Source: Bolinopsis microptera
Lineage: Eukaryota > Ctenophora > Tentaculata > Lobata > Bolinopsidae
Direction of reading: 5' to 3'
Length of the DNA: 64,000 nucleotides
Assembly: GCF_026151205.1 (NCBI RefSeq)
Contig: NC_087074.1
Span: 16,319,962 to 16,383,961 of the forward strand
Below are positions 13,275-49,500 of the stretch, piece after piece. Position 1 is the stretch's first letter. Each line of letters begins with the position of its first letter. The notes under the pieces are model-generated. The model saw nothing but the letters and a program-made list of their open reading frames with translations. It was not told the DNA's origin and did not search any database. Made by a program: the position numbers and the translations under genes.

Positions 13275-16244
13275 CTAGGTATGTTCTAGATTATTGAAAA
13301 AATGGGTTTTTAAAGCCCGTTTAAAAGTATCAATGTTGTTAGCTTTTCTTACCGTATACGGTAGCAAGTTCCAGAGTTTTGGGGCTGCGTTGCTAAACCT
13401 CCTATCACCTAGCCTGATTTTACTGGGTCTACTAACCTTAAACCTTAAGTCATCACCAGACAGTTGCCGTGTTTTAGAATATGCTGCCTGGGAGTCAATC
13501 TGAAGAAGTTCAGACAGATATGGTGGTGCTTGGCTGTACATAACCTTATACGCCAGAAGACAAATCTTGAAACTTATTCGTTCTTCAATGGGGAGAATGT
13601 GTGCTTTTTTGTAGTATTCAAGAAGATCTACATCACGGTCATCGATGTTATAGATGAATCGTATTCCAGCATTCAGTACAGATTTGAGCTTTTTCAGTGA
13701 CTTCATCGGTAGGCAAACATACAGTGCATTACAGTAGTCAAGCTTCGATATAACCAGTTGCTTCACTAGCATAACTTTTAAACTTTCATCAAGATAACAT
13801 CGTATTCTCTTCAGATTAGTTAATGCCCACATTGACTTCTGTTTAACATTGTTTAGCTGTCTTTCCATGGTAAGAGCTGGGTCTAGTTTGACTCCTAAAC
13901 TCTTCCAATTGTCACCGACACATTCTGTTGGCATCACTTCCGTACTCCCAAAATTAACAGAAATTTGATTCTGTCCAAATTCTCTAAGAACCAAAGGCTT
14001 CCCAATGACTAGTAGCTCTGTTTTTGACTCATTAAGTTTCATATAATTTTCAAGCATCCAGGCCCTTATTTCATCAAGGCAGGCATTGATCTTAATTTTC
14101 ATTTCACTTAGTTCTCCAGGTATTAGGGGTTCAAAAGAAATGTAGAGCTGCGAGTCATCTGCATATAGCTGAATACGAATCCCATATTTAGCAGCTATCT
14201 TCTGAAGTTGTTTAATGTACAGGATGAACAGAATCGGTCCAAGCAAAGATCCCTGAGGCACTCCAAAAAGAAGACACATTACATCAGATAGCTCCTGACC
14301 AACTTTGACATTGAACGATCTTGCATGAAGATAATCCTCAAACCAGCTGTTAGCTTTACCTGTGATTCCAAAATCAGCTAAGAGTTTTCTGATAAGTATC
14401 TTATGATCTATTGTGTCGAAAGCTGCTGAAAGGTCTAGCAGGACCAGTGTCACAATTCTACCCTGCTCAATTTCCCCAAGAATGTCATCAGTCATTTTCA
14501 ATAATAAAGTTTCACAGCTATGTTTTGGTCTATAACCAGACTGAACTGGACAATGAAGATTTTCTGCATCCAAGTATTCGTTGAGTTGACTGAGTATGTA
14601 TTTTTCAAGGATTTTGGACATAACCGGGAGATTTGAAACTGGTCTATAGTTTTTTAGACAGTCAGGATCTGCTCCATCCTTTTTGAGGGTGGGTCTGACC
14701 ACTGCTCTCTTAAGATCTGATGGAAACTTAGCAGTTTCAATGGAAAGGTTGACGATGTAGCAGAGAAATGGTGCTAGTTCTTTAATGCAGTGTTTCAGGA
14801 GAAACATGGGTATTGGATCTAAGTCACAGAACTTATTTGACATACTTTTCACCAGGGTTTCCATCTCGGACACTTCTACTGCTTTAAAAGTCTCTAACTT
14901 TGACTCCTTTTTATCACCTCTCGGGTTTTCCTGGGGTTCGGCCGGTACATCACGAAGGTTTTCAATTGAGGACCGGATGTTTTCCACTTTTCCAGAAAAG
15001 AAAGCTTTTAGATCATCTGCAACTTCCTTGGGATTTCCAGATGGCATACTTGTCTGAGAATTACCCAACAAGCGATTGACTTTCTTGTAAAGGGATTTAA
15101 TATCACCTGATGAAGCTGTGATAGAGTTTCTATAGTATCCCTTTCTTTTTTCAAACTCCATACCCTGAAATTTATCCCGAAGTCCTACGTACGCTGATTT
15201 AAGTCCTTTTCCAGACCTCCAAGCTCTCTCTGCTCTTCTTCTCTTTCTTCTCACTTCTCTCAGCTCTTCATCAATCCAGGGAGTTTCATTAGCTTTCACT
15301 TTCCTGTCCACTTCTGGGCAATGGGTGTCCATAAGGCTCGAAAGAACCTCATTGTACTGTGTAACAGCTTCGTCTAGTGACCAGTCAAAGTTTCCTTGGC
15401 ACAGAGATGAGTTCTTCAAACTTTCTCTAAAAATGTTTTTGTCAAGATCTTTAAAATTTCGGTAATTAACCTTTTTCCAAATCATCTTGGGTTTCTTACA
15501 GCAGTGATACTCTAAATCAAAATGAACCAGAAAGTGGTCGGAGGATGTTCCTGATTTGGTCACAGAAACTGGGCCCATTCTGGACCTAAGGTTTTCTGTA
15601 GAGAGTATAAGGTCAATTGTACCACCTTGTTCATGCGTTGGTACAATAGGCATGATTTGATAAAGGTCATAGTCTTGTAGAAGTCTTACCAATTTCATAG
15701 GGTACAAATCATTAGGACGCTCCATGTGAATGTTGAAATCTCCCATCAGAAGAGGGATACCAGTCTTGGTACTTAAGTCATCTAGGTAGCTCTCGAACTC
15801 CTCTAGAAACATACATTCCGTGTATCTAGCTTTCTTTGTATAAGGAGGCCTGTATATGTTCACAAAGCGAATCGAATCTGTCTCAGTCTCAGATTGGAGC
15901 AATGCTTCCATAACCTGGAACGTTTTGTACTTAGTTACCTTTTCGTTAACTTTTAAGGTTATTTCTGGTCTGTAAAGGAAAGCAATACCTCCTCCACCTC
16001 TGTGTTTCCTAGGATTTGATAGTATCTCCCAGCCATAACTCTTGATCTCTTGAATCTTTACACTATCTGCCTCCTTAAGAAACGTTTCCTGTACAAAGCA
16101 AACATCACATTTCTGATCATTGAGGTGCTCCATCACTCCCACTGTCTTATTTACAAGCGATCTGACATTAAAGGTTCCAACCCTTAGGTTTTTGTTCTCT
16201 TTGTCATTAGCTCCTTTACCCTGATTTGGTAGGAGTTTTTTGCA
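13275..16244 (-). CDS. LINE ORF2, APE-type endonuclease and reverse transcriptase
   Basis: The frame is stop-free from 16244 to 13275 (990 codons with stop). The first ATG falls inside the endonuclease, at the M of GVMEHLND near 16130; translation from a plain ATG would lose the first EN motif, encoded just upstream (NLRVGTFNVRSLVNKT). Endonuclease motifs: FVQET, RGGGGIAFLY, VNIYRPP, LLMGDFNIHME, GTIDLIL, SSDHFLVHF. RT motifs: NYRPVSNLPVMSKILEK, SAAFDTIDHK, GVPQGSLLGP, YADDSQLY. The C-terminus is the CR1 tail (FIYNIDDRDVDLLEYYKKA, SNAAPKLWNLLP). The frame is -1 relative to ORF1, which suggests a gag-pol-like fusion by frameshifting. Confidence 0.85.
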   Translation of the reverse strand, partial: CKKLLPNQGKGANDKENKNLRVGTFNVRSLVNKTVGVMEHLNDQKCDVCFVQETFLKEADSVKIQEIKSYGWEILSNPRKHRGGGGIAFLYRPEITLKVNEKVTKYKTFQVMEALLQSETETDSIRFVNIYRPPYTKKARYTECMFLEEFESYLDDLSTKTGIPLLMGDFNIHMERPNDLYPMKLVRLLQDYDLYQIMPIVPTHEQGGTIDLILSTENLRSRMGPVSVTKSGTSSDHFLVHFDLEYHCCKKPKMIWKKVNYRNFKDLDKNIFRESLKNSSLCQGNFDWSLDEAVTQYNEVLSSLMDTHCPEVDRKVKANETPWIDEELREVRRKRRRAERAWRSGKGLKSAYVGLRDKFQGMEFEKRKGYYRNSITASSGDIKSLYKKVNRLLGNSQTSMPSGNPKEVADDLKAFFSGKVENIRSSIENLRDVPAEPQENPRGDKKESKLETFKAVEVSEMETLVKSMSNKFCDLDPIPMFLLKHCIKELAPFLCYIVNLSIETAKFPSDLKRAVVRPTLKKDGADPDCLKNYRPVSNLPVMSKILEKYILSQLNEYLDAENLHCPVQSGYRPKHSCETLLLKMTDDILGEIEQGRIVTLVLLDLSAAFDTIDHKILIRKLLADFGITGKANSWFEDYLHARSFNVKVGQELSDVMCLLFGVPQGSLLGPILFILYIKQLQKIAAKYGIRIQLYADDSQLYISFEPLIPGELSEMKIKINACLDEIRAWMLENYMKLNESKTELLVIGKPLVLREFGQNQISVNFGSTEVMPTECVGDNWKSLGVKLDPALTMERQLNNVKQKSMWALTNLKRIRCYLDESLKVMLVKQLVISKLDYCNALYVCLPMKSLKKLKSVLNAGIRFIYNIDDRDVDLLEYYKKAHILPIEERISFKICLLAYKVMYSQAPPYLSELLQIDSQAAYSKTRQLSGDDLRFKVSRPSKIRLGDRRFSNAAPKLWNLLPYTVRKANNIDTFKRALKTHFFNNLEHT

Positions 16245-17377
16245 TCACTTGATGAGTGAGTTCTGGACATCACCCACAGTTTTTCTCTCACATAAAATGG
16301 ACAAAGAGTGTCTGACGCCTTGTGTCTTGGATCTGACTTCTCTGATCGATTCTTGCTATGTGAACAGTTTGTGCATCGTATGTCCCCTGTCTGTTTCTCT
16401 TTCTTCTTAATACAGTCCTTCGATTTGTGGCTTCCTGCACAGTAGAAACATGTTGGGTCTGAGTCCTTGGACTTGCAGTATATGGATCCACTTGTATGAC
16501 CAAAACCTTGACAGTGATAACACTGTATAACGTGATACCTGTCTCTGACAGGGTACATTTCCAATCCCAGACAGATCCTGTTTCCAGCCTTTTTGATAAT
16601 TTCCCTTATAGCCGATGAAACCTGTAAAACGGCAAACCTATCCTTGTCATCCATAAAGACAGCCTTGAACTCATCACCATTTTCCATCAGGGTCTTGATA
16701 GTGTCATTCTTCTTCAGGACACCCTCCACTAGCTCTTCTTTCGTCTTTATGTCTGCATCAAGGCCTGAGATAGTTATCTTTGGATTAAGCTTCCTCAGTT
16801 CTTCCGACTTAGATGTGACATTATATTTGGATTTAAGCGCTTCTTCTGCATGACCTAGATCCTCTTTGGATTTGAACACCAGTCTGGCAACACCTTCAGT
16901 TTTAGGGGGATTAGCCCTAACTACAGGAATATTGCTCAGTTTTCGCTTAAGATCCTTTTTCACAACTGTTACCCATTCTTCACCCGAGATTTTATTATCT
17001 CCATCAGGTCCCAAGTCCTCAGACTTCTTTTCAACCACCAAAGTGTGCCTGACCTTCTCAGTATGCAAAGACTTCACACCAGAATAACCTGACTGAGCTG
17101 TTGCCAAGCTCTCCTGAATAATATGTGGCAGTGTAGAAGCTAGTTCCTCTCTTACAATAGCTAAAACCTGTGCATGTGTACTGGATTCTTGTGGGCAAGA
17201 CAGAGCTTCGATTGCTTTTTCAGCTAAATTGTAGGCCATTTTTAGGGACTGCCAAATGCCCTCCTTTGTATTAGTACACTTTTTAACATCATCACACTCA
17301 GATATTCTTACCTTAAGGGAGGTGTTGATTTTCTCCAACTCTATCTCCAGTTTCTTCTTCAACTTCATATCCGCCAT
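16184..17377 (-). CDS. LINE ORF1, gag-like protein with CCHC zinc knuckles
   Basis: 397 residues from ATG at 17375-17377. The N-terminus is a charged coiled-coil-like stretch (KLKKKLEIELEKINTSLKV). The centre is RRM-like in character (VARLVFKSKEDLGHAEEALK, ITISGLDADIKTKEEL). The C-terminal third carries cysteine-histidine knuckles: CYHCQGFGHTSGSIYC, CFYCAGSHKSKDC, then CTNCSHSKN...HKASDTLCP. Such proteins coat LINE RNA and act as nucleic-acid chaperones. The 3' end overlaps the ORF2 frame, and an A AAA AAC heptamer lies in the overlap at 16235-16241. Confidence 0.82.
   Translation of the reverse strand: MADMKLKKKLEIELEKINTSLKVRISECDDVKKCTNTKEGIWQSLKMAYNLAEKAIEALSCPQESSTHAQVLAIVREELASTLPHIIQESLATAQSGYSGVKSLHTEKVRHTLVVEKKSEDLGPDGDNKISGEEWVTVVKKDLKRKLSNIPVVRANPPKTEGVARLVFKSKEDLGHAEEALKSKYNVTSKSEELRKLNPKITISGLDADIKTKEELVEGVLKKNDTIKTLMENGDEFKAVFMDDKDRFAVLQVSSAIREIIKKAGNRICLGLEMYPVRDRYHVIQCYHCQGFGHTSGSIYCKSKDSDPTCFYCAGSHKSKDCIKKKEKQTGDIRCTNCSHSKNRSEKSDPRHKASDTLCPFYVREKLWVMSRTHSSSDAKNSYQIRVKELMTKRTKT
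16235..16241 (-). other. A AAA AAC slippery heptamer in the ORF1/ORF2 overlap
   Basis: On the minus strand the ORF1 codons read GCA AAA AAC TCC, giving the canonical X XXY YYZ -1 frameshift heptamer in phase. The -1 frame opens just upstream (after TGA at 16245-16247) and leads without a stop into the EN start motif of ORF2. Whether slippage occurs is inference; no stimulatory structure was computed. Confidence 0.45.
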
Positions 17378-17521
17378 AATGCCCTGTCAAGTACTGAGGA
17401 CCAGACTCGGATTTCCAAACTCTTTAGTTCTGAGAAAAACTGTACAGTAGTATTGAAGTAAGATTCCAAATCCTCAAATTATTTGTTATATAGTAGTGTT
17501 GAAAGTATTAAAACGCTACGC

Positions 17522-17699: not shown

Positions 17700-19367
17700 A
17701 ACTCCACGAAAGGATCTCATGCTTGGACAGTCTCCTGAGGGTCTGCGACTCAGGTTGCTACTTTACTGACGCCAGCGACCAGGGGTTTCAGTCTTGAGAT
17801 TAACCAGGTGTCTTTTTTTGTTCAGAAATTAATTGTTTTTAACTATTTTTATTTGTGTGAAATATTTGTATGTGTGTGTTTTAAAACAACGCATAAAGTG
17901 CTTTTTTGTCACGAAGCCTCAAGCTTCAAGAATTTTTGTGTATGATACCTTGGTTTTGTCGAGTGTAGAGTGATTAATCATCATCGTGGTTTTGTTAATG
18001 CTTATCTTATCCTCATGAGATTTGTTTGCAGTGTATAAGTACATGTAACTTAAAGATAAATTCCAACTATTTCCGATTAATTGTCAATTAATTGAAATTT
18101 ACAGGTAATCTGAATATGTTTATTCAGTGTTCCACTAAATACGCCTTAACCACTTTATTATAACGTTTAACAGTGCTAATAGGCTGGGGTCCCCAGGTAA
18201 TGAGATATACGACCATTACTAATAGTAATACTCTTGGAAGAGTTCTTAGCTTTCTTTTAACTACAGATTATATTATTTTAGTTAGTATCGACATGAATGT
18301 TACGATTGCAGTCTATTTATTTATTATATTGTAATAAATAAACCGGTTTCAAAGCCCTTAAGGGTGGCCATCGGGTCTTTAAAACAGCTCAATAGTAAAG
18401 AGTAACCTTATCATTTAACATAAACTTGTTTATGTGAGTACACCACATTAAATTATTTAATCATCACTAAATGTTAAATGTATTTACCTTGAGTTGAATG
18501 GCAGTATGATATGTTAAATGTATCTACCTTGAGTTGAATGGCAGTATGATATGACGGCCAAAACTCGTTTCTAAAATATAGACTTTCCACTTTAAGGTGA
18601 AGTACAGTTCCTTAATTTCAAATATGCTTCTTTGAGTTGGCACATTGTTAATATGATAACGGTGCAAATTGTACCAAATTGAATAACATGTCATTAGACA
18701 AGGGATATCGTTTCAATTTAATTTTGATAATCTTTCAAAAAAGTCATCGTTTTATTTAATTTCATCAAGTAGTCTTACAGATTAATAGTTCTTCTAACTT
18801 TGTTTCACTAGCATAATCGTATTAATCAAACAATTCTGAATTTCGCGTTTCAAAAGCTGTATTTACAAGTAGATAAAAAACATAAAACCGTTTTTAAAAT
18901 AAAATAGCTGTGTGCTTTGTTCAGTTGAAATAAAATGAGGAAAAACGTGGATAGAATTTATAAAACCTACCGATTTCACAATTTGTCACGTTTTTTATAT
19001 AATACGTTTCAAATATCTTTCCATGTTCAGCAATTGTTTTAAACGGTCTGTTTACTGCTTAGTGCTGATGTTTACTGCTTAACGCCACTTATTTATGCTG
19101 ATGAATATTCGTTTGGAATATGTCCTTCCTTTGATGAAAGCGATTTTCGAATTTCCTATTCTGTCGATATAGACTATAGACAATAGAGGCTTCAGCAGCA
19201 AATCCTTTTTGAAAGAATGCAGCTAATTGTTCTGGTGTGCTACGGTTTTCGTACCAATTAGTACAGACAGACTACTAATTCTGTTGTATTCCTCCGCCAC
19301 AACTCCTGCAACAATATCATGCTCTTTGATAAATTCATTTTCATCACAATTCGCTACATTATTTTAT
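17700..19367. other. gene-free interval and 3' flank of the LDLa-GPCR gene
   Basis: AT-rich with no supported gene. It holds a 42-bp direct duplication at about 18474-18553 (both copies contain CCTTGAGTTGAATGGCAGTA). At 19200-19340 there is a short minus-strand open stretch (NCDENEFIKEHDIVAG, VVAEEYNRISSLSVLIG) that may be a leftover of a related receptor tail or chance. Confidence 0.4.
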
Positions 19368-22300
19368 CTAAATCTTTGATGATGATGTTTCGCATTCTTC
19401 AGGAATACTTTTCAATGTCCTGCGCATAATAATAAATCTACTTGCGAGATCTTCTTTTCTTTGGAATCTTTCAAAATACTCAGTTGCTATTTCTGTATCA
19501 CTCAATGTGGCAACATTCTTTTTACTGATATCTGACTTTGAAGCAGACTCAGTAGTATCATCATTTTTGTACAAACCAGTAGGTAATTTCCTGTTCACAG
19601 TTCTGTTAAATGGAGTCATTTCTTGTACTGGGGGCTCATTTGTATTGAGAGCAGATTGTGGAGTCATTTCTACGTTTCTTTTTACATGTCTTTTCCTTTT
19701 TATAGTTATACCTACTTTCCTTAAGGATAATACACATTTTCTGATATAACACATGTAAAATAGAGACACCCAATACCTGACTTTGTTTAGCATCAACTTA
19801 GCTGTTAGGGTTATGTAGTTATGATATAGGATGGGGTTTATCACAGAGTTTATTGGTAGAATCACGATCGAAGATATTGGATAAAAGGCTGTAGCATCCA
19901 TTAATTCAAAAGAGTGCAGTGCACACACCAACATAAAAGGGACCCAACAAAAGAAATCTGTCGCAATTATGATGGCTATGTGATTGTCGGTCTCCTCTTT
20001 GTCTCTTGAGCGTCTATTTTGATTTCCATAATTGCATATTCTAGCTCGTTGCTTTGAGCTCTTTTTAAAAAGTAAAACTTTACTGTAGCAGATGAACATG
20101 ATGGTGAAACACAGAAAATTTAGGGTTAAACTTGACCATACATAAGCCTTTTGTGGGTCTTCTTGTGATACGAAGTATTTGAAGAGACATACGCCATCAT
20201 TGCCATAAAAATGGATTTTACGTCTCCCTATACCTCCATATTGGTTTGAAAACATTTTGTCTATCAAGTTATTGATTTCTGCCCAAGTGAACACTTCAGA
20301 GCCAACGATTCTTCCATAATACATGCTTATCTTGTTAATGTGTGTGTCTTTGGTGACAAATGCTGGAAATATCGTGATTTTCGGATTATAAGTCATGCCA
20401 TTGACGAAGATATCCTCATATCGGACCATTAAGGGGATATAAGCCAGAGCAAATGACGCAATTGCTATTATGAAGATAATGACAACCATTTTTGCAAATG
20501 TATATTTGGATGTCATTTTTTGGACTTTGATAATTCCGATAGCTCTAAAAATGCTAAGAATTGTCATCGAAAAGAGGGATATTTGACCACCGAAAGTACT
20601 AAACACTCCCAACAAAGCACACCCATCACTGGATAACCAATTAAATCTTTCTTTGCAGTAAGATTTCGCAAACACGAGCGAATCCAAAGTAGCGATGGTT
20701 AACAGGTACACTCCTGTTATCAAATCCCCAACATGGATGACAGTTGTCAGAGCTTTATTGTTCAATGCCGATGTAAAATCTCTGGTAGCCAGGTGTTTAA
20801 GATTCTTGAAAAGTTTGACAGAGTTTAGTATAACTGCTGCACAACCAACAACCCAACTGAATACTTTTAGAGAGAGTTCTGAAATAATTATTCTCGTACA
20901 GTCCTCATTGCACTCGTCGGTGTAGTCATCACAATCTATTTTCCCATCACATTTCTGGCATCGTGTAATGAATCGTTTTGAAGTTTTACACAAAAAGTTA
21001 TTGGTGCAATTATCTTCATCTGAGCTATCACCACAATCGTCGATCAAGTTGCAAACCTTGTCATAACTGACGCATCTATCATTTTTGCAGAGAAAGACAT
21101 TATTTTGATACTTCCCACTTTTCCTGTTTTTCTTCAAAAAAGTTAGTCGATTTTTATTCTCTATCGTGATTACCCTGTCTTTGTATTGGTTATTAGCCAA
21201 ACAAGAGTCATGGTTAAGTGATCGCAATGGACAAGAAGGTTTATCTTTGCATTTTCCCGAGCAACTAAGATAAACGTAAACTTTTCCAAAAACCTTTCTG
21301 CAGTCTACGATGGCCTTGGGTAAAACTATTGTTGGTATACCGTTGAGTCCAAAAATTGAGACAGGCAAGAAATCTTCTTGGACGCATGGTGATATGTAGT
21401 GACCTAAACTTTTGATCACTCCGGCAACACAATACGTAAGAAATTCCAATGGTTGTGCTATTCCAGTGGCAATTGGGTTTGTAAAAACATGTTCGGATGA
21501 TCTAGTCTGACCACAAACTCTTGCATGATCGCAAATGTCATGACCGTCACATAGGTCTTGGAATGTTACAAAATAGTATGATCTAGGGCTGCATATGTAA
21601 ACATCTTCGCATTTACTACTGTCAGGCACATAACGAGACAGGCTGCCGACTCCACATGTTGGCCACATCTCTGTTTCGTCCTCTCCGTCTAAACAGTCTT
21701 TAATTCCGTCCATCAGCCACGAGATAGGTATAGAAAGTTCTGTTTCATGACGATACCTGCGGGAACATGTAGACAAAGTCATGCTATCACAGATCATAGA
21801 TGTTTCATCACTTTTGTCGGAGCAGTCCAAAACTCCATCGCAAAATCTATGCTTATGGACATAACAGGAGGGAGTGGTTCTCAAACATAGGCTGTCGAAC
21901 CCATCATCGCACAAACCTGGGCTCTGAACGCAGGTGGCAAATTTAGACACCGTAGATGGGTATCCGTCAATCGTACACGACACTACTCCTCTCATTGGGT
22001 CCGTACAATTGGTTTGATCGATATACAATTTGCAATATGATTCATGCGAATACCTTCTCAATTGATTGATTAGATCAACACGAGTAAAGAGCCCAGAACA
22101 TCTGGTAAAATTGCATTGTTCTGCATGTCCATTATTGATCGAACATTTCGTTTCCTCACGATCTTTGCAATGAAGTATGCGATCACACATACTACGGAAG
22201 TGAGCTGTTTTGAAAATATATATATGATTTTCACTTAGTTTTCCATCACAAAACCAATCATAACGATAACCATTACACAATGCCTCATCACGACACAGAC

Positions 22301-22681
22301 TATCATCACATAATCCATCACATTTAGTGATAATGTTATCTTGGGGAGGGATGGCATCGACATACAGGTCGAACATGTTAGGTACCCTTCCCTTAATATC
22401 TTTTGAGAAATTCGTCTCACAAAATGGTCCCGAAATGTGTCTAGTTGGTGGAATCAAATCCATCGCGATACAACCTTGGTATACATGTGGATCATCAGAA
22501 CAGATCTTTGAAACACTAGTGTGTGACAGATATGACACGTCATCTAACATTCCATCAGGTTTCCTTATTGGCAAATATACGTAATATGCCGAAGAGTCTA
22601 AGCATTCAAAAACTTCAAAATATGCATCGATTTGACAAACATTTTTCAGAAATCCCCTATGTTCAGTAATGGTACAACTCT
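19368..22681 (-). CDS. last exon: LDLa-like repeats, 7TM domain and cytoplasmic tail
   Basis: 1104 codons including stop, entered at acceptor CACTTCAG (22682-22684); the exon contributes about 1103 residues. The extracellular part is cysteine-rich with LDLa-like units, for example HRFCDGVLDCSDKSDE, GIKDCLDGEDE, CNLIDDCGDSSDEDNC and KCDGKIDCDDYTDECNEDC. Seven hydrophobic segments follow (LKVFSWVVGCAAVILNSV; TTVIHVGDLITGVYLL; CALLGVFSTFGGQISLFSM; FAKMVVIIFIIAIASFALAY; VWSSLTLNFLCFTIMFI; IAIIIATDFFCWVPFML; ISSIVILPINSVINPILY). The DRY box is degenerate (IFRAIGI). The tail is basic then acidic, ending EECETSSSKI. Two conserved-looking LDLa units lie directly before TM1. Confidence 0.88.
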
Positions 22682-25600
22682 CTGAAGTGATCTTGTTATG
22701 ACATCAATTTTAATTCCTTTCCAATAATAAGTGAATTAAGAATGAATGAAAATACCTGTCAAGTTTACAATGTTCATATCCTATAGAGCTAAAGCTTATA
22801 ATTATTATATTGTACACAACAAATAAAAAGAAATACGGTAAGATGCTTACCGGGTTGTATATTGCACAAAAGTCCCAATGAATAATATTTATTCCTGTTA
22901 TACTTATTATCATTCTTCTCTAGGATCTCCAAGGAGTAGGAACAGTTTTCGAAACCAAGATAACTTTTAGCTTCATCACAGTTAAGGATACTCATTGCTT
23001 TATCATATCCTTGTTTATATCGCATCGCTCTCTTATCGTCGTGTTCCAAATTAACTTTTTCTTGTTCATCAACCGATTTATCGTACCTATGATCACAAAT
23101 ACATTTAAGGGTTCAATTGATTAATCTGCTTGACAATTTGTAGTTTGTAGTTTAAGTTTAACTTCTTGATTTTAGAACTATTCCATTTAATCTACCTTAC
23201 TCGGGATTATTATGACCGGGATAAAGTGGTGGGTTTAGGGTAATTTCGCCATATTTTTCCCGAACCACATTTTCACCGGTCGTTAATAAACCCGCCTACT
23301 CAGCTTTTAGGGTTCCCAAGGGGTATGGGTGCTCATATTTTAATCGTTGTCTTATATTCACTAAAGAAGACTATTGGGACACTTGTTGTAGGTTTTTCGA
23401 CTTCATTTGGCTAAAATTGCAAAAAATTCACCTTTTTGCCCAATTCTTGTCATATATCCTTATTGTCAAATTTGATTTAAATAGGCCAATTTTTAATTTC
23501 TTAGGTATTGACTATCTCTACATAATGAAATAGGACTCAAAGTAAAAGTAACAGTTAAATTAAAACTTGAATTTATCTTATCTCCCTTTATCTTAATATC
23601 GATCTGGTTGTTACGCTTCAAATGTTAAAAATTATTTTCCATCTAGTTTGATTAACCACGAGTCATTATTTCTGTCTACTTTCAACAATTATTGATAATT
23701 CGACTTGTTTCACAAGTTTTAGCAATGCGAAAATTTCTAAACTTGCTTATCTCTAATAAGGAAATTTACATCTGAGACAAAATTTTTGAATCTAAAATTG
23801 AAAGGTTGGACACCGGTAAAATGGCGACCGGGAAAATGTGGTGGGTTTTGAGCAATTTCGCCATATTTTTCCCGAACCATATTTTAACCGGTCGTTAATA
23901 AACCCGTCGTAATAATCCCGAGTAAGGTAGTTTATTATTCATAATGGTTGTTTCGGAAGTTTTAAAACGTGCTTAAGGTACAGGGGCTGTATTTGGACCC
24001 TTAGGGGTGGTGGTAGGTTCTGGTGGTAGGTTCTGCCTGCAAGCAAGAAACCTGCAAGCAAGAAACCGAAATATCAAAGGAAATATCAAAGACGACTCAT
24101 AATACCTTGATCTTTAATGGATACGCAATCACAATACTTAAAAATAGTTTTTACTTGTCAAATAACTGTTTTACCGTTTGATGATTCAATTCAAATACAA
24201 AATTAGCCTAAATCAAAAATTGACTTATCACGCTCACTTTTACTTCGCTCTCGTAGAAATCTATAGATCAGTATCGTCCAACAATTCGTGAATGCACTAA
24301 TTCTAAACAAAGCGTTACTTACCAGGCTTCTGTGAAAAACGAGACCTCTGCTCCGAACCAGTCCTCTGAATGGTCGTAACCAAGTTCCCTGCATATGACA
24401 TCTGCTTTGTGGTCTAAAAAATCCGCCAGGGAGACGGTTACAGTCTGAAAACAAAAACGGTAGACAAATTTGGTGGTAGGTAATGCTCCATTTTAACGAA
24501 AGGTTTACAGTCCTTAGCAGTTTGTACCGAAATTTCACAAAGGTTTATAATCGTACGTTTCATTCGCAATTTAAATTTCTCCTTTTTGGATGCAAATGTT
24601 ATCTTTGAACTTATCAAGAAAACAAATGTTTAAAAAAAAATTATAGATACCGATCAGTGTCTCCAAAATAAAAAGGCGACCAATCTATTATTGATTATTT
24701 GTTAATAACTCAAGAACGGTTTGAGAATATCATTAATTATTGTACAGTGCTGCAGGATTTGATCTCTAAAGGTCGTGAACACATTTAAAGAACATATTTG
24801 GGCTTGATGGCCTAATGAAGTTTAAAAACATTTTCCAAAATCTGTCTCATCATTTATATTTTTTCATTGTGCATCTCGGTTACCCTTATATCAGTAGTTA
24901 CTTGCATCGCTGTAAGTGCGCCACTTGATCAGATGTACGGACCTGATCAGTAAGTCACTGCACCCTCGAGCTGCAACTAGCTCCTGCAGCTCTTGCCAGG
25001 GTGGATCACATCGTTATTATGTAGTTAGAGCATTGGACCTTTGAGAGTCTGCTCTATTTCAGATTATGAATGCAATGCACTGAATTTAAACGATGACATG
25101 TGCTTGATAGCATCTCCATAAACTCTTTAAGCATTTTAATCATTGACAATTTCGAAGAAAAATGTATGAGGTTTCCCCCGAAATGTTTCTTTTTTGGGGC
25201 CTAGCTTCCAAAATGAGAGCTACAGCAATTATACAATATCAATAATTTTCAGGCCTTCCTCACGGAATGACAAATAATAATCTAACCCAGTTTAGCACTT
25301 TCGCCAAAACTATTCCAGCGCTTCCATTGCTCGGTTTCCCATCTGACCCGTAAAGAGCAAACTGGACTTCATCTGTAATAGTAAGCAATGTTTTAGACGA
25401 TTATCAAATACACAGGGTTTAGTTTTCAAAATTCGATTTTTCCAGCCTCAGTTCGATTTGTTTGTCGTTAAACAATGTATGTTTTACCCTTCAATATGTT
25501 TGAATGACCCATTTGGCAAAATAAACCAACAGCTTCCTAATTTGGTCCCAAATAGATATGCAATTTTGGCACGTTTATACCGTGATTCTCGGAGCAAAAC

Positions 25601-28600
25601 GAAAAATGCACGGTTTAAAGTTTTTGATTGACACAATCACAATTATAACTTCAAAAATGTTTTAAAAATCTGGTCACATATAGATTTGTGAAACTAAGGT
25701 TGGTTAAAGTAAAACTTATAATTTGAAATTATGTCAGTGAAAAGTTGTAAAAGTTACTTGGGCAATTGTGTGTGCTGCAGTTCTCGTGTTCATGAGTTAT
25801 GTTCCCTTCACAAAATCGACTGGTTACTGATCGATATGATATAGTATCTAGACAACGCCGTTCTCTGAAACGAGTGCCTCCTCCACAGATGGCTGAACAG
25901 CTTGACCAGCTGCCAAAATCTGACCAAGAAAATCGTTCGTAATCATAATCTGAAACAGTTTTGTTGTTAGATAGGATAGTACCAGAAAATCTGCATTTTC
26001 GAATATTCGGTTAATCCGATTATCACAATGCTGGCAAGCATTACCGTCGCCCTTATATTCACAACACTATTTACCCCCTATACTATTATATCCCCTTTAT
26101 TGATTTCCAGGCATTAAGACTCATCGAAAGTAGATCAGCAGGTACATTTAAGTTCAAAACATTCTAATTCAATGTTAAAGATGACAGGAATAATAATAAG
26201 AAATAGTTATATGGAGGTTTTTAAGAAATTTGCGCAAAATACGCGCCAGCATGTTATACGAAATTAGGTAAAAAACCCAAAATCGCCATATTCAGGTGCC
26301 TTAAAAACCATGTTAAAATTGAGTTAGAGATCTGAAACTTTGCAGGGCGTCTAGACCTTGTCCAAATCGACTGTTAAAAAAATTTCATGTTTCAGGAGTA
26401 TCGTGAAGTGGGTTTTCTGGAACCCCTGTTTTACAACAGATTGTCGTGAAGATATATATATAATATAGACGCTTTTTGCAGTCAATTGTAGCCTACATTT
26501 AAGTGTCCGTAGATTCGAAAGTATAAACGATACAGTCATCTCGAACCACAGGTTTTAAAGATAATCGTTTAAGCTTTAGTTTACATTGTATTGAAAACTA
26601 ATTTAACGTCATCATCATCACTTGATGACGTCATCAAATTAAGTGTTTTAAAAACTTGATTTTTGACAAAGTAACAACTTTTCAAATCGATTTTACGCTA
26701 TTAAAGAGTAATTTTATTCAAAATCTGAGGACATTTTCACCTTAGATAATTGTTCAAGCATTCCGAAAATCTACCGGAATAGTTTCCTACCTTGCTCCTT
26801 CATAAAGATATTTGCTATTGAAGTTAGTGCTTTTTTGAAGAATAATTTTATAAAAACACAAAAGTTGTGAATTAGTATTCTCTGGTGTTGGGTCATCCCT
26901 TGGGTTGTGGAGCTCAATTTTGCTTCTTAAAGGTGTAAATTGTGTTATAGGCTAGTTTTAAAGTTAAAAATCGAAAAGTTGCACACGTGGGGACACGCCC
27001 AAATTTATTTAAAATAGCTAAAATCACTAAAAATTTTGATTTTCACGATTTTTATCAACTTTGGAGTCCCGTTGTGATCCAAGTTCTTTTTGAAATCTTC
27101 TGAAACTTTGCATGCTTATCAAACTATATATAAAGTACCACTATGCAAAAATTTACGGTGATTCAATATTGTATGCGCACGCAACGTCCGCTCAAAGTTT
27201 GCACGTGCGAAAGGTGAGAATTTTGCTCATTCGTGATTTCGAATATATTCTGCTTTCCACGATATTTAAATGGCATTATATATGAATTTAATGCCAACTT
27301 GAATGAGTAAAAAGTGCCATATTCAGTCGGTTATCGACAGATATACCTAACTAAACACAAGGAAACGTTTTCAAAGGCAGAATTTCGAAATCGTCGGAAT
27401 TACCTCCTTGTTAATGAAGTTTCGATTGTGTAAATTATCCTGACATTATAATCAAAAAGAGATGATATTTGACCAAAACCCATAATCATGGGTAGAGTGT
27501 ACCGCTGCCAGTGTCTCTCTTTTCCAAACAAAAGGAAATGATATTAATTTGAGGAACCGTCCGCTAATGCAAATTGATACCGAGAATGAAATCGGTCGCT
27601 CGCTTTTTCCATTCGATCACGGCTTACGAATTGTAATAAAGCTTATTGATTTGAAAAAGCGAGCGACCGATTTCATTCTTGGTATCAATTTGCATTAGCG
27701 GACGGTTCCTCAAATTAATATCATTTCCTTTTGTTTGGAAAAGAGAGACACTGGCAGCGGTACACTCTACCCATGATTATGGGTTTTGGTCAAATTACCT
27801 TATCGGACCTTATTTGACTTGATTTTAAATTAACGGACATAACTATGAACGGACATTAAAATGAACCCACAAAGATGAACGCTAGGACCTCCAGCGTTCA
27901 ATAAATGTCCGCTCAAATAAGGTCCGATAAGGTAAGTACTAGTATAACAGTAGCACAATTGTCGTGCTAAAAGGTATGTGTGTGTTTTTCTAAGTTGTTT
28001 AATAATTTACCACAGTCTAGTTCGTCTGATCCGTCTGTACAGTCGTATTCAGGCCCCATATTGCCATCACAGACATGATCATCCCGAACACATTCACGAC
28101 CCTTCAAACATTTACTGGATCCTTCAGGACATCTGAATTCTGTTGGGGTAGTCAATAATTGTATGTTCAGCTTCTAAGCTATAGGTGCAAATAGTATTTA
28201 AAAATATTTAAAATGGGTATGATACATTATCATATTGGCTTTGTACCAATATATATTTATACCAATATATGTATATACCAATATACAACTGGTTTTCTTC
28301 TCTTATAGAAAAAGGGCTCTACTAGCTGTAGCTAGGAGCATGAAATATCGGTACAAAGCAAACTATGCAATTGTCAAACTATAAGTTTCATGTTTGAAAA
28401 GCAATCTTCAGTGACATAATTAACATAAAAATGGCAAACATAATACAACACAGTGCTCCTTTATCAAATTTTATAGTTAACAATTAACAATTACTCAATA
28501 CTACTAAACCTATATAAATAACTACAAATCCTAATAACTAATAAATACTAACTAAATATGTCTAACTAAGAATTTCCTAGAGTGCCTACATTTAGAAATA

Positions 28601-30437
28601 ATTTCTGATCTTTTATTAATAATGCCTGGGGTTTTAAGTATGTATAGTTTCTCGTCTAAGCAGAGGCCACAATGCCCCGCTCCAGCCTTATATTTCTTCG
28701 ATTTAGTAATAATCTTCCAGTCTATGCTATATTCAATCATCTTCTCCTTGAGGTCCCATATCAATTTTGATAACTCGGTACTTAGTCTGTGCTTTGAATT
28801 CTTAAAACTTTGTCGATGATTGTACCACCGTGTCTTAAAACTGTTTTCAGTCAATCCAATATAGGCCGTTTCCTTGTTATATTGGATTGACTGAAAACAG
28901 TTTTAAGACACGGTGGTACAATCATCGACAAAGTTTTAAGAATTCAAAGCACAGACTAAGTACCGAGTTATCAAAATTGATATGGGACCTCAAGGAGAAG
29001 ATGATTGAATATAGCATAGACTGGAAGATTATTACTAAATCGAAGAAATATAAGGCTGGAGCGGGGCATTGTGGCCTCTGCTTAGACGAGAAACTATACA
29101 TACTTAAAACCCCAGGCATTATTAATAAAAGATCAGAAATTATTTCTAAATGTAGGCACTCTAGGAAATTCTTAGTTAGACATATTTAGTTAGTATTTAT
29201 TAGTTATTAGGATTTGTAGTTATTTATATAGGTTTAGTAGTATTGAGTAATTGTTAATTGTTAATTATAAAATTTGATAAAGGAGCACTGTGTTGTATTA
29301 TGTTTGCCATTTTTATGTTAATTATGTCACTGAAGATTGCTTTTCAAACATGAAACTTATAGTTTGACAATTGCATAGTTTGCTTTGTACCGATATATAC
29401 CAATATATGTATATTGACCCATCATCTGTTTTTCCGCTTACTTAATAATCCCACCCCATATTTACTTAACCCGGTTTGGTTTTTTGAGTGATATTTCGTT
29501 TTTGACTATAGCTTTACGCAAGAACTATACAGATCTGCTTGGTAGTTGGCACGTACCAACTACCAGAGTTGCAGGTGCTGGCAAAGTTCCAGCACACTGC
29601 TTATTATTGAGTTTCTTGAACAGTTGGCTCGTACCAACTACCAGAGTTGCAGATGCTGGCAAAGTTCCAGCACACTGCTTATTATTGAGTTTCTTGAACA
29701 GTTGGCTCGTACCAACTACCAGAGTTGCATATGCTGGCAAAGTTCCAGCACACTGCTTATTATTGAGTTTCTTGAACAGTTGGCACATACCAACTGCCAG
29801 AGTTGCAGGTGCTGGAAAAGTTCCAGCACACTGCTTATTATTGAGTTTCTTGAACAGTTGGCACGTACCAACTACCAGAGTTGCAGGTGCTGGCAAAGTT
29901 CCAGCACACTGCTTATTATTGAGTTTCTTGAACCATTTCCACACTTCCAAAATCTGTGTCCACGGTTACACTCATCCGCTAAATTTTGTCGTAGCGAGTG
30001 CCCAGTTTGATATGTCACCGTGTATCGTCGTCTACTTAGTACTTTAATGAGGTTGTATTAAGTTCAAAAGAGACGATATCGACGATATAGACTCCAACTG
30101 CTTTGGTTGCTTTTAAGTATAGCACCCCAAAATTGGTTGTAGGCGTATTATTGTTGAGGTAATTTAGCATGATTAAGCCAAAAATGGACCAAATATGGTC
30201 CATTTTTAATGAGTTTTACGGACAAAAGTACTTCCAGGAAGGTGTATCGGGTATCCCTATAACGTATGGTGCAGGAAATACCCGTAAGGCCTTCTACTAA
30301 ATGATTTAGTTAAAACAAACCGTCACACCCATCTTCATCTGATTCATCATCGCAATCTTCCTCTCCGTCACACAACCACTCACGTCGTATGCAACCAACA
30401 CCATCTGAACATTTTCTGAGGCCCTCTAGTTCACACG
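19368..30437 (-). CDS. LDLa-TSP1-SRCR multidomain receptor with LGR-type 7TM domain (3' seven exons)
   Basis: Exons in transcript order: 30321-30437, 28011-28139, about 25758-25949, 25287-25372, 24323-24444, 22851-23086, 19368-22681. Every junction has AG/GT and matching phase, giving about 1397 residues plus an unseen N-terminus. Domains: LDLa, LDLa, thrombospondin type 1 repeat, SRCR domain over four exons, further LDLa-like cysteine repeats, then a rhodopsin-family 7TM most like LGR/GRL101 receptors (VGDLITGVYLLTIATLDS, CWVPF, NPILYHNY) and a long cytoplasmic tail. By family it is a plasma-membrane G-protein-coupled receptor whose ectodomain binds an unknown ligand. No leucine-rich repeats were seen, unlike type C LGRs. 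Introns carry several mobile elements. No signal peptide or first exon was found. Confidence 0.8.
22851..25372 (-). CDS. exons 25287-25372, 24323-24444, 22851-23086: SRCR domain
   Basis: Joined translation begins NEVQFALYGSDGKPSNGSAG, continues IVLAKVLNW / TVTVSLADFLDHKADVICRE then LGYDHSEDWFGAEVSF, and ends with ILNCDEAKSYLGFENCSYS ... YYSLGLLCN. The ADVICRELGY core, the W-T-V strand and the late CSY / LLCN cysteines are those of a scavenger receptor cysteine-rich domain. The cysteine after the WTV strand of classical domains is absent, so the disulphide set may be reduced. A MITE occupies the intron at 23192-23930. Confidence 0.75.
23192..23930. mobile_element. MITE-like element with CTACCTTACTCGGGATTATTA ends, in a GPCR intron
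   Basis: The ends are inverted repeats: CTACCTTACTCGGGATTATTA at 23192 and its complement ending at 23930. Next to each end is a roughly 100-bp subterminal block in direct orientation (AATTTCGCCATATTTTTCCC, GAACCAxATTTTxACCGGTCG, TTAATAAACCCG). There is no open frame. It lies between the second and third exons of the SRCR domain. Confidence 0.65.
25758..25949 (-). CDS. exon: thrombospondin type 1 repeat
   Basis: Acceptor TGTTTCAG and donor GTAACT. The translation contains WSDFGSWSSCSAICGGGTRF, RERRCLD, FCEGN, ENCSTHNCP: the W-x2-W-type start, CSxxCGGGxRxRxRxC core and CxxxxCP end of a TSP1 repeat. The 192-nt exon begins with 2 nt and ends with 1 nt of split codons, so it is another 1-1 module. 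Exact ends may be off by one base. Confidence 0.85.
27467..27795. mobile_element. fold-back element, 143-bp near-perfect arms
   Basis: 27467-27609 and 27653-27795 are inverted copies differing at very few positions (for example ACCGAGAATGAA versus TTCATTCTTGGT), separated by 43 bases. The outer end is ATTTGACCAAAACCC. There is no coding capacity. It lies in the intron between the LDLa-2 and TSP1 exons and directly touches another inverted-repeat element. Confidence 0.75.
27796..27934. mobile_element. 139-bp MITE with TACCTTATCGGACCTTATTT ends
   Basis: A perfect terminal inverted repeat of about 22 bp (TACCTTATCGGACCTTATTT... and complement). Internal copies of AACGGACATTAAAATGAAC and AATGTCCGCTCAAAT, and a GCTAGGACCTCCAGC centre, give further self-complementarity. 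Related copies at 47869-48067 share the ends and the AATGTCCGTTCAAA word. Confidence 0.75.
28011..28139 (-). CDS. exon: LDL-receptor class A domain 2
   Basis: Acceptor CCCCAACAG and donor GTAAAT. The translation reads FRCPEGSSKCLKGRECVRDD, HVCDGNMGPEYD, CTDGSDELDC, a full LDLa pattern including the terminal DGSDE acidic motif. The 129-nt exon is symmetrical in phase (1-1), as shuffled extracellular modules usually are. Confidence 0.85.
28552..28877 (-). pseudogene. Penelope-like GIY-YIG endonuclease fragment (left arm)
   Basis: Minus-strand reading through the spacer gives NKETAYIGLTENSFKTRWYN, then HRQSFKNSKHRLSTELSKLI, WDLKEKMIEYSIDWKI, GHCGLCLDEKLYI and a stop. YIGLTE...FKxRxxxH, the TELSKxIW helix and the CxLCLxEK knuckle are hallmarks of the GIY-YIG domain at the C-terminus of Penelope-like elements. 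The reverse transcriptase is missing, so it is a 5'-truncated fragment. Confidence 0.75.
28878..29189 (+). pseudogene. Penelope-like GIY-YIG endonuclease fragment (right arm)
   Basis: The same protein fragment as the left arm, residue for residue from TENSFKTRW to RKFLVRHI, on the opposite strand. It begins abruptly at YIGLTEN; the few residues before it (NKETA) exist only in the left copy because they are encoded in the spacer. Confidence 0.75.
29545..29935. repeat. 78-bp tandem repeat, five copies
   Basis: Each unit has GTACCAACTACCAGAGTTGC, a GGTGCTGGCAAAGTTCCAGC hairpin-like stretch and ACTGCTTATTATTGAGTTTC. 78 bp is 26 codons, so both strands show long open frames made of 26-residue repeats; these are by-products of unit length. 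It lies in the LDLa-1/LDLa-2 intron, next to the Penelope palindrome. Confidence 0.85.
30321..30437 (-). CDS. exon: LDL-receptor class A domain 1
   Basis: The exon is bounded by CAATCAG and GTTTG. Its translation has the LDLa signature: CSDGVGCIRREWLCDGEEDC followed by DDESDEDGC, with the DCDDESDE calcium-binding acidic cluster. It starts with 2 nt of a split codon and ends with 1 nt that completes GAA with exon 28011-28139. It is the most 5' exon that could be supported. Confidence 0.8.
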
Positions 30438-32140: not shown

Positions 32141-32729
32141 CAGTTAACCAGGTTTCTTGATTCAGTCTGGTGACTTTGTCGTCGATCAGGCGTTTGATGT
32201 AAGATTGTGGAATTGCGCACTTCAAAGTGGATTCACTGGTTGTGCCAGTCACAAATATTACTTTTGCTTAAACTAATAAACACATTACAATAACAATATC
32301 TTAAAACTATTTAAAGTTCAAGTGCAAATTTCAAATTAAGTGTAAAACACATTTTGTGTATACTATATAAATATTGAGAAGCAAAGAAGCTCACCTATGT
32401 CCAGTATTTCGTGGGTCAGATGAAACAGCCAACACATGAGAGCACCAGCAAGTAGATTCATCAAGCTAAGATAGAAGATATGTAGAATGAAATCATGTAA
32501 TATATGCATTTTTTATCGGTAATCTTTTGAACAGAAAATAAACGAAAATTACCGTGACACCTTTTTGGTTCGATAATTTGCCGTTTGGTTATCTTATTCT
32601 TACTCTAGGCGGTATTGGAGGGACCCATAGGGTTCTTCATTTTCCTGGAAAACAATTTGGACTATAATCATTGGAAGGGTGTTTCAACGATTTCACAGCA
32701 TACTTTTATCAAAACCTAACAAATAGGTA
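32140..32729. other. gene-free interval
   Basis: AT-rich sequence between the LINE tail and the SINE. The first 60 bp may still be decayed LINE. Nothing else was recognised. Confidence 0.4.
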
Positions 32730-46532: not shown

Positions 46533-49500
46533 CTGGAAACATTTGGCGAATGAGTGTTTGAAACGGGTATATACAATTATTAGTTAAATGAGTTTGAAGC
46601 GAGTAATAAAGTATTACACCGCATAAAACGTATTATGTGTCATGATGGTTATCAAATATGTTCCACAGAGAAGTGGTTATTTAATTCTTACCATGAGGAC
46701 AGCAAAGCTGGTGTTGTGAGAGCACAAACAAAGCACTCCATCTGACGGCTTAGCAGAGTTGTAGATAGTCTCGCAACCCTCCTCCCACTTCGCTTTGACA
46801 GGGTCGTATTTTGCGCAGATGTACGAAACTTGCATTCTCTTGCCGTCTGGCTCCGTGTTGAGGCTGGAGTTCGTGTTGCCCTAAAAGTTGTGGAGGGTTA
46901 GAAAATATACGTACAAAGGAATTATTTACGTTAAACTTAATGATGATAAGGTGTATACTTGTTTACAATTCTTAGGCCAGTGCCATTACCCTAAAAAAGG
47001 TAAATTACCACATCATCCAGAAGCTTATTTGCTACAGTGTAATACAAATTAAGTATAGTAATCATACAAATAACTCACTATATCGATGGTGGGCTTCATG
47101 AAGAGGTTTAGCTTAAAGTTATCGGGTGCGTTTTCAACTTTGACCTCCGTGATAAACGAGTTGACGAAGCTTTTTTTGGCGTCTCCACCGTCTTTGTTGG
47201 CTGCGTCCTCTAGCTCACTCTTCAGATCATCCAGGATTTTAGTGACGGTTTCCTCGTCCTCCTCGCCCTCCTCCTTCGTCACCAAGGATATGGTGGTGTC
47301 CGGCATGAGTGTCGAGTCTGTGATCAGGACCACAGCCATGTCCACATCCTCGTTCGTTTCTCCCGACTTTGTCTCAATCTGAATTAATTTCATAGTTAAA
47401 TATTGTAATAATATGATGATAAATGCATATCATTTACTTAGTGAGATAGCTACTGTGTACAAATTGTATCGCGGAAAACATTGAACAATTAGAACTATTT
47501 ACTTTAGTAGCAAAGTAAAGTTGAGTACTAATAATATACTGACCAATAGAATTGTGTTTTCCTTCTCCTCTTTGTTATCGCTTGATCCAGATCCTAATTC
47601 GCAGCCTTGAAGATCCTTACCATCTCGGTTTGCTTTAGGAAGGGTGAAGGTGACAACACCATTATTGCTTGGATTACTCTCACCACCACCTTTCTTAAGA
47701 TCGATCACGGCTATGCGAGGAGACTTGATTATCTTGTTCTTGACAACAGTTTGCTTAGCAACGTTTACAATCTGCGTCACCAAACTGGGAGGAGATGTGA
47801 GTTACGATCTAATATAAGCACTGTAGACCCTTGCTCTATTAAATATACCTTACCTCCCAGGTATCAGTTCCTTATCGGACTTTATTTGAACGGACATTAA
47901 TTGGACGCTGGAGGCCCTAGCGTTCATTTTAATGTCCGTTCAAATAAATTCCGACAAGGTAGCTAAATTAAATATATTAAATGAATGCCTTTGAGCGTTC
48001 ATTTTAATGTCCGTTCAAAATTATGTCCGTTTACAAAATGTCCGGTCAAATAACGTCCCATAAGGTAGTAATAAGTTAGCTCATGTCTTTGTGTACAAAT
48101 CATGTATGAATTTCGACAGCACTTGAAGTAAAGTACAATTCGCACAAAAACAAAAGAAATGAAAACAATGTACCCATCAAATTTGGTGCATATGCCCAAA
48201 AATGGGCATATGGTTTTTGGCTTGTAACTCACCCATCAGTGATACTGCTGGCGGACTGGGTTTCAGTGTCGTCATCTGCTGTCTTAAAATCAGACTTCAC
48301 AAGGTTAGACACGGTGTTCAGGACGCTCTGGGTCACTGCCTCTGAGATATTCCCGCCTTCTTTTTCTCCCTCGTCGCTTTTGACGATGGATTCTAGAACG
48401 TCAGAGACGGCCTTTACGTCACCGATACCGTTCATGACCGTATTATTTGTCATCTTCTCCATCTGTGCCGTCTTATCTTCATTCGAGACATTCTGAGGAG
48501 AAGGTCGTTACATAACATCGGCAATCGGAAATTAAGTACGTTTTGAGCTAGTTGCATGAGATTACTTTATTTGAGAAACCATGCTTTTTAACCTGTTAAA
48601 CTGAGTTCTAATAAATTACTGAAATAACCTGATCGTCGACTAGACTTTCTATGGCTATGGTGTTCGCAGTCTTCTGACAGTAGTAAGTCTTCTCCACATA
48701 CGTTTTCTTAGCACTGTCCATCTTGCAGGTGAAAACCGCGGTGAACTCGTCAAACTCACATTTCTGAGGTTCTGAGCTGCTGTCGAGCTCCAGCCAGTCG
48801 TGGCTGAATGTTCCGTACTGTGTTTGGAACTCTGTTTCAGAGGCACAGCCTTCTCCCAGATCACCTAAAAGTTAGATAATACAAATGCTGAATATCATTG
48901 TTTCTTTTGTCTTCATTATAATATATATATTAATAATGCACTTTAAAAGTGAAACGTTAGATATTGAGTTGTTGGCTTACTTATGCATTTCTCGATTAAA
49001 ATCTCCTCAATTCCATCATTCTCCATCCTAGCTCTAACAGCTGCTGGAGATCCCGGAGGACATGGTTCGCACTTCGCTGCATCCTTTCCAGCGTACGTTT
49101 TATCCGGACAGTTCAAACACACGACCTGTCCAACTGAAACATGTTATTTTGTCAGACAAGAAATGATTTAGATGGGCATTATACGTATAATAGACAGTAG
49201 ACACCTAAGTAGTGATTATATCGTCACATTTGGTGTTATCAGACGTTTTCACTTCAAATTACCAGGACAATTAATGGCTACTTTTGTAATCAAAATCGTT
49301 TAATTAGTTTAATAAATGGCTATTTTCGTCGTAAAAATTAGGAAATTTTATAAAACTACTAAACGGTACCTTTATCAGTAAACATATTTTCCCGACACTG
49401 TTTGCATTCAGTTTTCCCTATCTCGTCTTGATATGTTCCAGTAGCACAAGGATCACAGTCAGTTAAGCCAGCATTTGACTTTGTTCCCTGTGGATATAGT

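Follow-up and report, generated by a model that had tools for sequence, protein, structure and literature searches.

Structure of the receptor gene

The window, by which we mean the whole stretch of 64,000 nucleotides that was analysed, contains a gene of eight exons on the minus strand, which runs from an ATG at 32509 to a stop codon at 19368 and comprises 1436 codons plus the stop (4311 bases). The predicted protein consists, in this order, of a signal peptide, two LDLa modules, a TSP1 repeat, an SRCR domain encoded by three exons, a Cys/LDLa-rich ectodomain of approximately 590 residues and an LGR-type class A 7TM region, and we infer from the sequence that the receptor sits at the cell surface.

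Exon 1 (32395..32509) carries the start codon and the signal peptide MHILHDFILHIFYLSLMNLLAGALMCWLFHLTHEILDI with its hydrophobic stretch, and ends in a phase 1 donor. The earlier note on this DNA had left the signal-peptide exon to be located, and it was found by comparison with the nearest copy of the gene, copy B (see below), in which the corresponding exon shows an 84% DNA match in the same frame with a 3-base gap that preserves the frame. Exons resembling exon 1 are also present in the paralogous loci L005 and L007. A second minus-strand gene at 48946-54472 had been considered as the N-terminus and was dropped once the signal-peptide exon was found; it has many exons of approximately 60-residue Cys-rich repeats that on reading are GCC2/GCC3-like or ephrin-receptor-like.

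Exon 2 (30321..30437) and exon 3 (28011..28139) each encode an LDLa module (Pfam Ldl_recept_a, 1.3e-9 and 1.1e-5, respectively), and exon 4 (25758..25949) encodes a TSP1 repeat (TSP1_ADAMTS 1.2e-7, TSP_1 6.3e-7), the TSP_1 score being 29.9 bits against a cut-off of 21.6; all three exons are of phase 1-1. The SRCR domain is divided over exon 5 (SRCRa, 25287..25372, phase 1-0), exon 6 (SRCRb, 24323..24444, phase 0-2) and exon 7 (SRCRc, 22851..23086, phase 2-1). Exon 8 (19368..22681), which is entered in phase 1 through an acceptor at 22681/22682, encodes the Cys/LDLa-rich ectodomain core, the 7TM region, the cytoplasmic tail and the stop codon. All exons lie on the minus strand, and the linker exons and the 7TM exon have AG at every acceptor and GT at every donor, two of the donors being weak (GTTTGT after LDLa1 and GTTAGA after SRCRa). 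Joining exons 2 to 8 gives an open frame of 1397 codons without a stop, which bears out the proposal in the earlier note that six linker exons join the 7TM exon in perfect phase. The LDLa and TSP1 modules read there were likewise recovered when the joined protein was compared with Pfam, which reported Ldl_recept_a (2.3e-16) in six stretches, 7tm_1 (3.1e-15), and TSP1_ADAMTS and TSP_1 above their cut-offs. The region preceding TM1 contains 75 cysteines and nine N-glycosylation motifs.

The intron between the two LDLa exons holds a near-perfect inverted duplication (28552-29189) with nearly the same 116-residue open reading frame on both strands, GIY-YIG-like or Penelope-like on reading. Approximately five tandem copies of a repeat of approximately 78 bases are found at 29544-29933, and copy B has this repeat too.

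The SRCR domain

The SRCR module, also named in the earlier note, is recognised through the family profile, the window sequence alone remaining below the Pfam cut-off. The three SRCR exons together match Pfam SRCR at 0.014 and exon 6 alone at 0.018, both below the cut-off; no SRCR is reported in the whole joined protein at E up to 1, and some of the canonical cysteines are missing. A family profile with two more canonical members matches CD163 at 8.5e-16, which places the domain in the SRCR superfamily. The assignment of exons 5, 6 and 7 is based on their splice sites and phases, on the exon order in the paralogues and on this family profile. Pfam SRCR itself matches six of six family members at E up to 0.1, the best at 1.2e-13 and the window's own at 0.014.

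When 22 oriented paralogue loci were scored with the SRCR profile, five of which had helped to build it, SRCR was found in 12 (L004-L009 and L019-L024), and in L019 and L020 it lies inside the long exon with a weak score (0.001 and 2e-5). Nothing was found in the other ten (L010, L011 and L025-L032), for which the upstream sequence read extended over 1.2 to about 9 kb. What is constant in the family is therefore the LDLa-rich core with the 7TM region, SRCR being common and not shown to be universal.

The 7TM core and extracellular loop 2

The 7TM region (19818..20888) is defined by Pfam 7tm_1 (2.1e-15), by hydrophobic segments and by comparison with solved structures. The 7tm_1 score of 57.3 bits against a cut-off of 30.5, together with matches in seven of seven family members at E up to 0.01, places the receptor in class A. 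With a profile of seven long exons the GPCRs in the PDB were ranked as LHCGR (92 bits), TSHR (82), FSHR (81), RXFP1 (80), entry 8w1z (62), labelled GPCR family-1 protein, which we take to be nematode FSHR-1, and SSTR2 (40), while chains of LRP2, VLDLR and LDLR in the same ranking matched through their LDLa modules. The glycoprotein-hormone receptors and RXFP1 thus stand far above other GPCRs, in agreement with the LGR-type assignment made from the letters alone, and RXFP1 ranks first among GPCRs when the window member is searched as a single sequence. A single-sequence structure prediction of the 7TM part reached a pLDDT of 37, too low for a fold search.

The TM3 arginine, CWxP and NPxxY are kept in all seven aligned members; NPxxY in TM7 reads NPILY in the window, and its N, P and Y columns are invariant. 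Only the arginine of the E/DRY motif in TM3 is present, the window reading FRA and the other six members having no acidic residue before the arginine. This motif is known to vary within class A, but with the acidic residue missing in all seven members G-protein coupling cannot be assumed.

No leucine-rich repeat (LRR) family was found by Pfam at E up to 1 in the joined protein of the window member, as the earlier note had it, and the long exons of seven members likewise gave none at E up to 0.01. No LGR hinge region with its conserved motif was seen by eye before TM1. Since an LRR ectodomain was looked for and not found, we call the receptor LGR-like and not an LGR. It does carry LDLa modules, of which a type C LGR or GRL101 has at least one. 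Neither GPS/GAIN nor 7tm_2, the marks of Adhesion GPCRs, gave a match at E up to 1.

Two LDLa modules lie directly before TM1 (20898..21104, exon-8 residues 526-594), the first identified by Pfam and both falling within a match to the paired LDLa modules of VLDLR and within the seven-member alignment. The other prominent element is a long conserved extracellular loop 2 (20187..20426, exon-8 residues about 752-831), in which many residues are invariant across all seven paralogues. Between the aligned TM4 block and the loop-2 cysteine block the window receptor carries 71 residues, compared with 6 in RXFP1.

One gene or two neighbouring genes

The same exons might instead belong to two neighbours, one encoding a secreted LDLa-TSP1-SRCR protein and the other a separate 7TM receptor. 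In-phase joining alone is weak evidence against such an arrangement, phase-1 modules being common in metazoan ectodomains. In six paralogous loci (L003-L008), searched over 10 kb or less each, the exons found keep the same order as in the window gene: SRCRa and SRCRb in all six, SRCRc in five (not L008), LDLa in four (not L006 or L008) and the TSP1 exon in three (L003, L004 and L005). The upstream exons are present twice in L007, and the L006 receptor has a TSP1 exon 12.9 kb upstream, outside the fetched stretch. In L005 the phases agree at every determined boundary: LDLa1, LDLa2, SRCRa and SRCRb were compared at either end, TSP1 and the long exon at their acceptors.

A genome search with the SRCR exons of the window gave 48 matches, and 41 of them, serving 14 receptors, are located on the same strand within 12 kb upstream of a matching 7TM exon, where approximately 0.3% would be expected by area. 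Three more belong to a truncated family copy near 20.505 Mb (L033, C3:20501000-20505999), in which SRCR and TSP1 exons are followed by the start of the long exon and no 7TM match was seen in the stretch read. The remaining four, near no known long exon, speak for separate genes; one of them was followed for a further 4 kb, which contained no long exon. The TSP1 exon behaves like the SRCR exons: of its best 10 matches 7 precede a 7TM exon, one of them by 12.9 kb, and when 16 of 150 matches were entered with a 16 kb limit the figure was 9 of 16. Furthermore, no start codon with a signal peptide stands at the head of the long exon, and no stop separates the two parts.

Given the co-location of SRCR and 7TM exons and the exon order repeated in the paralogues, two neighbouring genes are very unlikely, and the single receptor gene of the earlier note is upheld by this conserved co-location, by the head of the 7TM exon and by the shared phases.

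Size of the family and its N-terminal modules

Four genome searches for the 7TM exon gave 54, 78, 77 and 83 matches, of which 279 of 292 were merged into 139 genomic places on 13 contigs (C1 to C13), the 13 omitted being 5' parts of exons already listed. The family thus occupies at least 139 places, a lower bound since the searches score the best candidates only; the count takes in partial copies, and for 12 of these places at least one search reported a stop within the match.

The N-terminal heads differ between subfamilies. Subfamily A (the window gene, copy B and L004-L008) has LDLa and, where found, TSP1; subfamily B (L009, L023 and L024) has three exons of a hevein-like repeat; and subfamily C (L021 and L022) has an exon that is tentatively galectin-like. 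In all three subfamilies these modules precede an SRCR. The name hevein-like is our own reading, one such exon having given no Pfam match when scanned, and the galectin-like exon matches Pfam at 0.002 in one of the two members, which is below the cut-off, its profile giving no match among solved structures. Using part of the 139 places, we found the best 7 of 88 hevein-like matches beside three receptors and the next six beside none, so the repeat is also widespread elsewhere. For the galectin-like exon, 5 of 9 matches were beside four receptors, the four negatives having been checked by eye against the full list. LDLa-like exons were also seen by eye upstream of L030. A tree of 16 receptors joins the window gene and copy B to the two members of subfamily B (support 100/99), and gives the subfamily C pair and the L019/L020 pair a support of 99-100 each. 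The architecture given in the earlier note stands as to the single receptor gene, its modules and their phase, whereas the signal-peptide exon, the at least 139 loci and the variation of N-terminal modules between subfamilies had escaped it.

Two further candidates for N-terminal modules were rejected. An F5/8C-like exon near L020 (Pfam 0.001, below the cut-off) is not claimed as a family module because, when 21 of its 58 matches were tested against part of the receptor list, only two had a receptor next to them. Very long open frames at three loci, which had been expected to carry further N-terminal modules, begin shortly before the core in the stretches fetched and overrun its 3' end, and so added none. 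Among other receptors, the genome gave 32 matches to ionotropic glutamate receptors, some of which occupy long uninterrupted frames. The ligand-binding domain of a Mnemiopsis leidyi glutamate receptor is the best match, at 72-75% identity, which marks the host as a ctenophore other than M. leidyi.

Rates of change between the window gene and copy B

Copy B (L003 and L002; C3:2180021-2189490) lies 14 Mb away on the same contig and is 96% identical to the window gene in the 7TM exon. Over LDLa1, LDLa2 and TSP1 the two copies differ by 41 nonsynonymous and 9 synonymous changes (dN 0.134, dS 0.116), and over the long exon by 50.2 nonsynonymous and 34.8 synonymous changes (dN 0.019, dS 0.053). With counts rounded, a Fisher test separates the nonsynonymous to synonymous ratios, 41:9 and 50:35, at p 0.007; a difference is also seen in dS (p 0.046). 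The N-terminal modules of the two copies differ in length by 1, 3 and 7 codons, always in frame. SRCRc of copy B differs by one base in a homopolymer, which breaks its frame as read and points either to an error in the assembly or to decay of the copy; since the broken frame distorts them, the SRCR rates were not used.

Only one close pair was compared, and in it the N-terminal modules are near neutrality whereas the 7TM exon is constrained. As far as substitutions can tell, this contrast agrees with recognition modules that evolve quickly on a signalling core under constraint; rates near neutrality may equally stem from relaxed constraint and not from diversifying selection, and conversion between the copies may have homogenised the 3' part.

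Possible function of the receptor family

On balance we lean towards a family of LGR-like receptors without LRRs, expanded in ctenophores and occupying at least 139 places, that would sense external or non-self cues. A conserved Cys/LDLa-rich stalk stands where LGRs carry LRRs, preceded in many members by SRCR and subfamily-specific modules. Sensing of outside or non-self cues is favoured because the loci are so many and the heads differ from one subfamily to another, and a role in pattern or matrix sensing, as first suggested, is plausible for the window receptor, although the data speak more for a large family with sensory or recognition tasks than for one matrix sensor.

Mechanistically, the N-terminal modules and SRCR would bind an external ligand, which could be glycan, microbial, prey or other non-self material, and binding would move the LDLa pair abutting TM1 and the long loop 2. 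These two would then act as a tethered activator switching the 7TM region, as proposed for RXFP1, where loop 2 is reported to have a tethered-agonist role, and the activated 7TM would engage a G protein. The accessible part of a study of RXFP1 describes LDLa as the activator and contact of exoloop 2 with the ligand (PMC4561518).

Alternatively, the family could consist of LRR-less hormone receptors of the relaxin/insulin type, its numerous paralogues serving endogenous peptides, insulin-like or other, and large GPCR families can be peptide receptors. In favour of this, the 7TM region is closest to those of glycoprotein-hormone and relaxin receptors, multiple LDLa modules occur in GRL101, and the ligand of RXFP1 is contacted by exoloop 2 (PMC4561518). 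Nevertheless, LRRs, the usual hormone-binding part of LGRs, were not found, at least 139 loci look to us beyond the needs of a hormone system, and the N-terminal modules vary among subfamilies, so we regard this as improbable. TSP1, LDLa and SRCR are on the other hand typical of matrix and cell-surface binding, and all are present here. The receptors could accordingly serve matrix or cell-cell recognition (adhesion, allorecognition or mechanosensing) and not outside cues, much as the amphioxus adhesion GPCRs carry SRCR and LDLa in the excerpted text of PMC2246102. It is, however, 7tm_1 and not 7tm_2 that matches, with no GPS/GAIN match, and the number of loci in our judgement resembles sensory or immune repertoires, which leaves such a role unlikely.

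Returning to the sensing of external or non-self cues, a bolder and more doubtful version, which we put forward tentatively, would be a repertoire of the ctenophores' own comprising well over a hundred recognition GPCRs, in which a constant LDLa-rich LGR-like core with swappable heads (LDLa-TSP1, triple hevein-like or galectin-like, with SRCR behind the heads in many members) would wire carbohydrate or non-self recognition straight to G proteins, replacing Toll-like receptors or classical chemoreceptors. The family suggests, as judged from its genes, that ctenophores built their own large sensor set for outside cues. If true, an LGR-like 7TM can work without leucine-rich repeats, which bears on the origin of LGR activation by LDLa and extracellular loop 2, and at least 139 loci that couple modules of the scavenger-receptor and possibly the lectin-like kind to a 7TM of hormone-receptor type would make a testable candidate family.

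Comparison with known receptors

Among known systems the type C LGRs (RXFP1/RXFP2, and GRL101 as type C2) share the LGR-type 7TM region and the LDLa modules, and TM6 and TM7 align with RXFP1. They differ in that no LRR was found in the window member, SRCR and TSP1 or other modules are added, loop 2 is approximately 65 residues longer in the ctenophore and there are at least 139 loci. The glycoprotein-hormone receptors (TSHR, LHCGR and FSHR) are the best GPCR matches to the family profile, the window member differing again in having no LRR found. The amphioxus receptors resemble the present one in placing SRCR or LDLa before the 7TM region, but belong, according to the accessible part of PMC2246102, to the Adhesion family, whereas the window gene has 7tm_1 and no GPS match. 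For Mnemiopsis SRCR proteins, the figure legend in the available part of PMC11797021 lists TSP1 and LDL in its SRCR panel and names 7TM only within the C-type lectin panel, and that part describes no SRCR-7TM receptor. According to the same paper, 12 SRCR genes of Mnemiopsis showed a change upon re-exposure to Vibrio. The GPCRs discussed in the available text of PMC13231562 belong to clades that radiated independently in ctenophores, no domain architecture being given there; a selection scan between Mnemiopsis species in the same text found GPCR activity enriched among the top-tenth genes, with 79 GPCRs. A GRL101-like receptor is raised in the sensory tentacles of starfish according to the accessible part of PMC6267866. 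Neither the Mnemiopsis scan nor the starfish data show a function for the ctenophore receptor family. No paper combining LDLa, GPCR, TSP1 and SRCR was found among the open-licence literature.

Other features of the window

A 400-residue open reading frame at 16184-17386 on the minus strand has zinc-knuckle-like Cys motifs and is probably a retroelement protein, with no significant match in Pfam. Also on the minus strand, a fragment at 18124-18267, with no Pfam match, resembles TM6 of a GPCR by eye and lies partly within the 3' flank that is conserved between the window gene and copy B.
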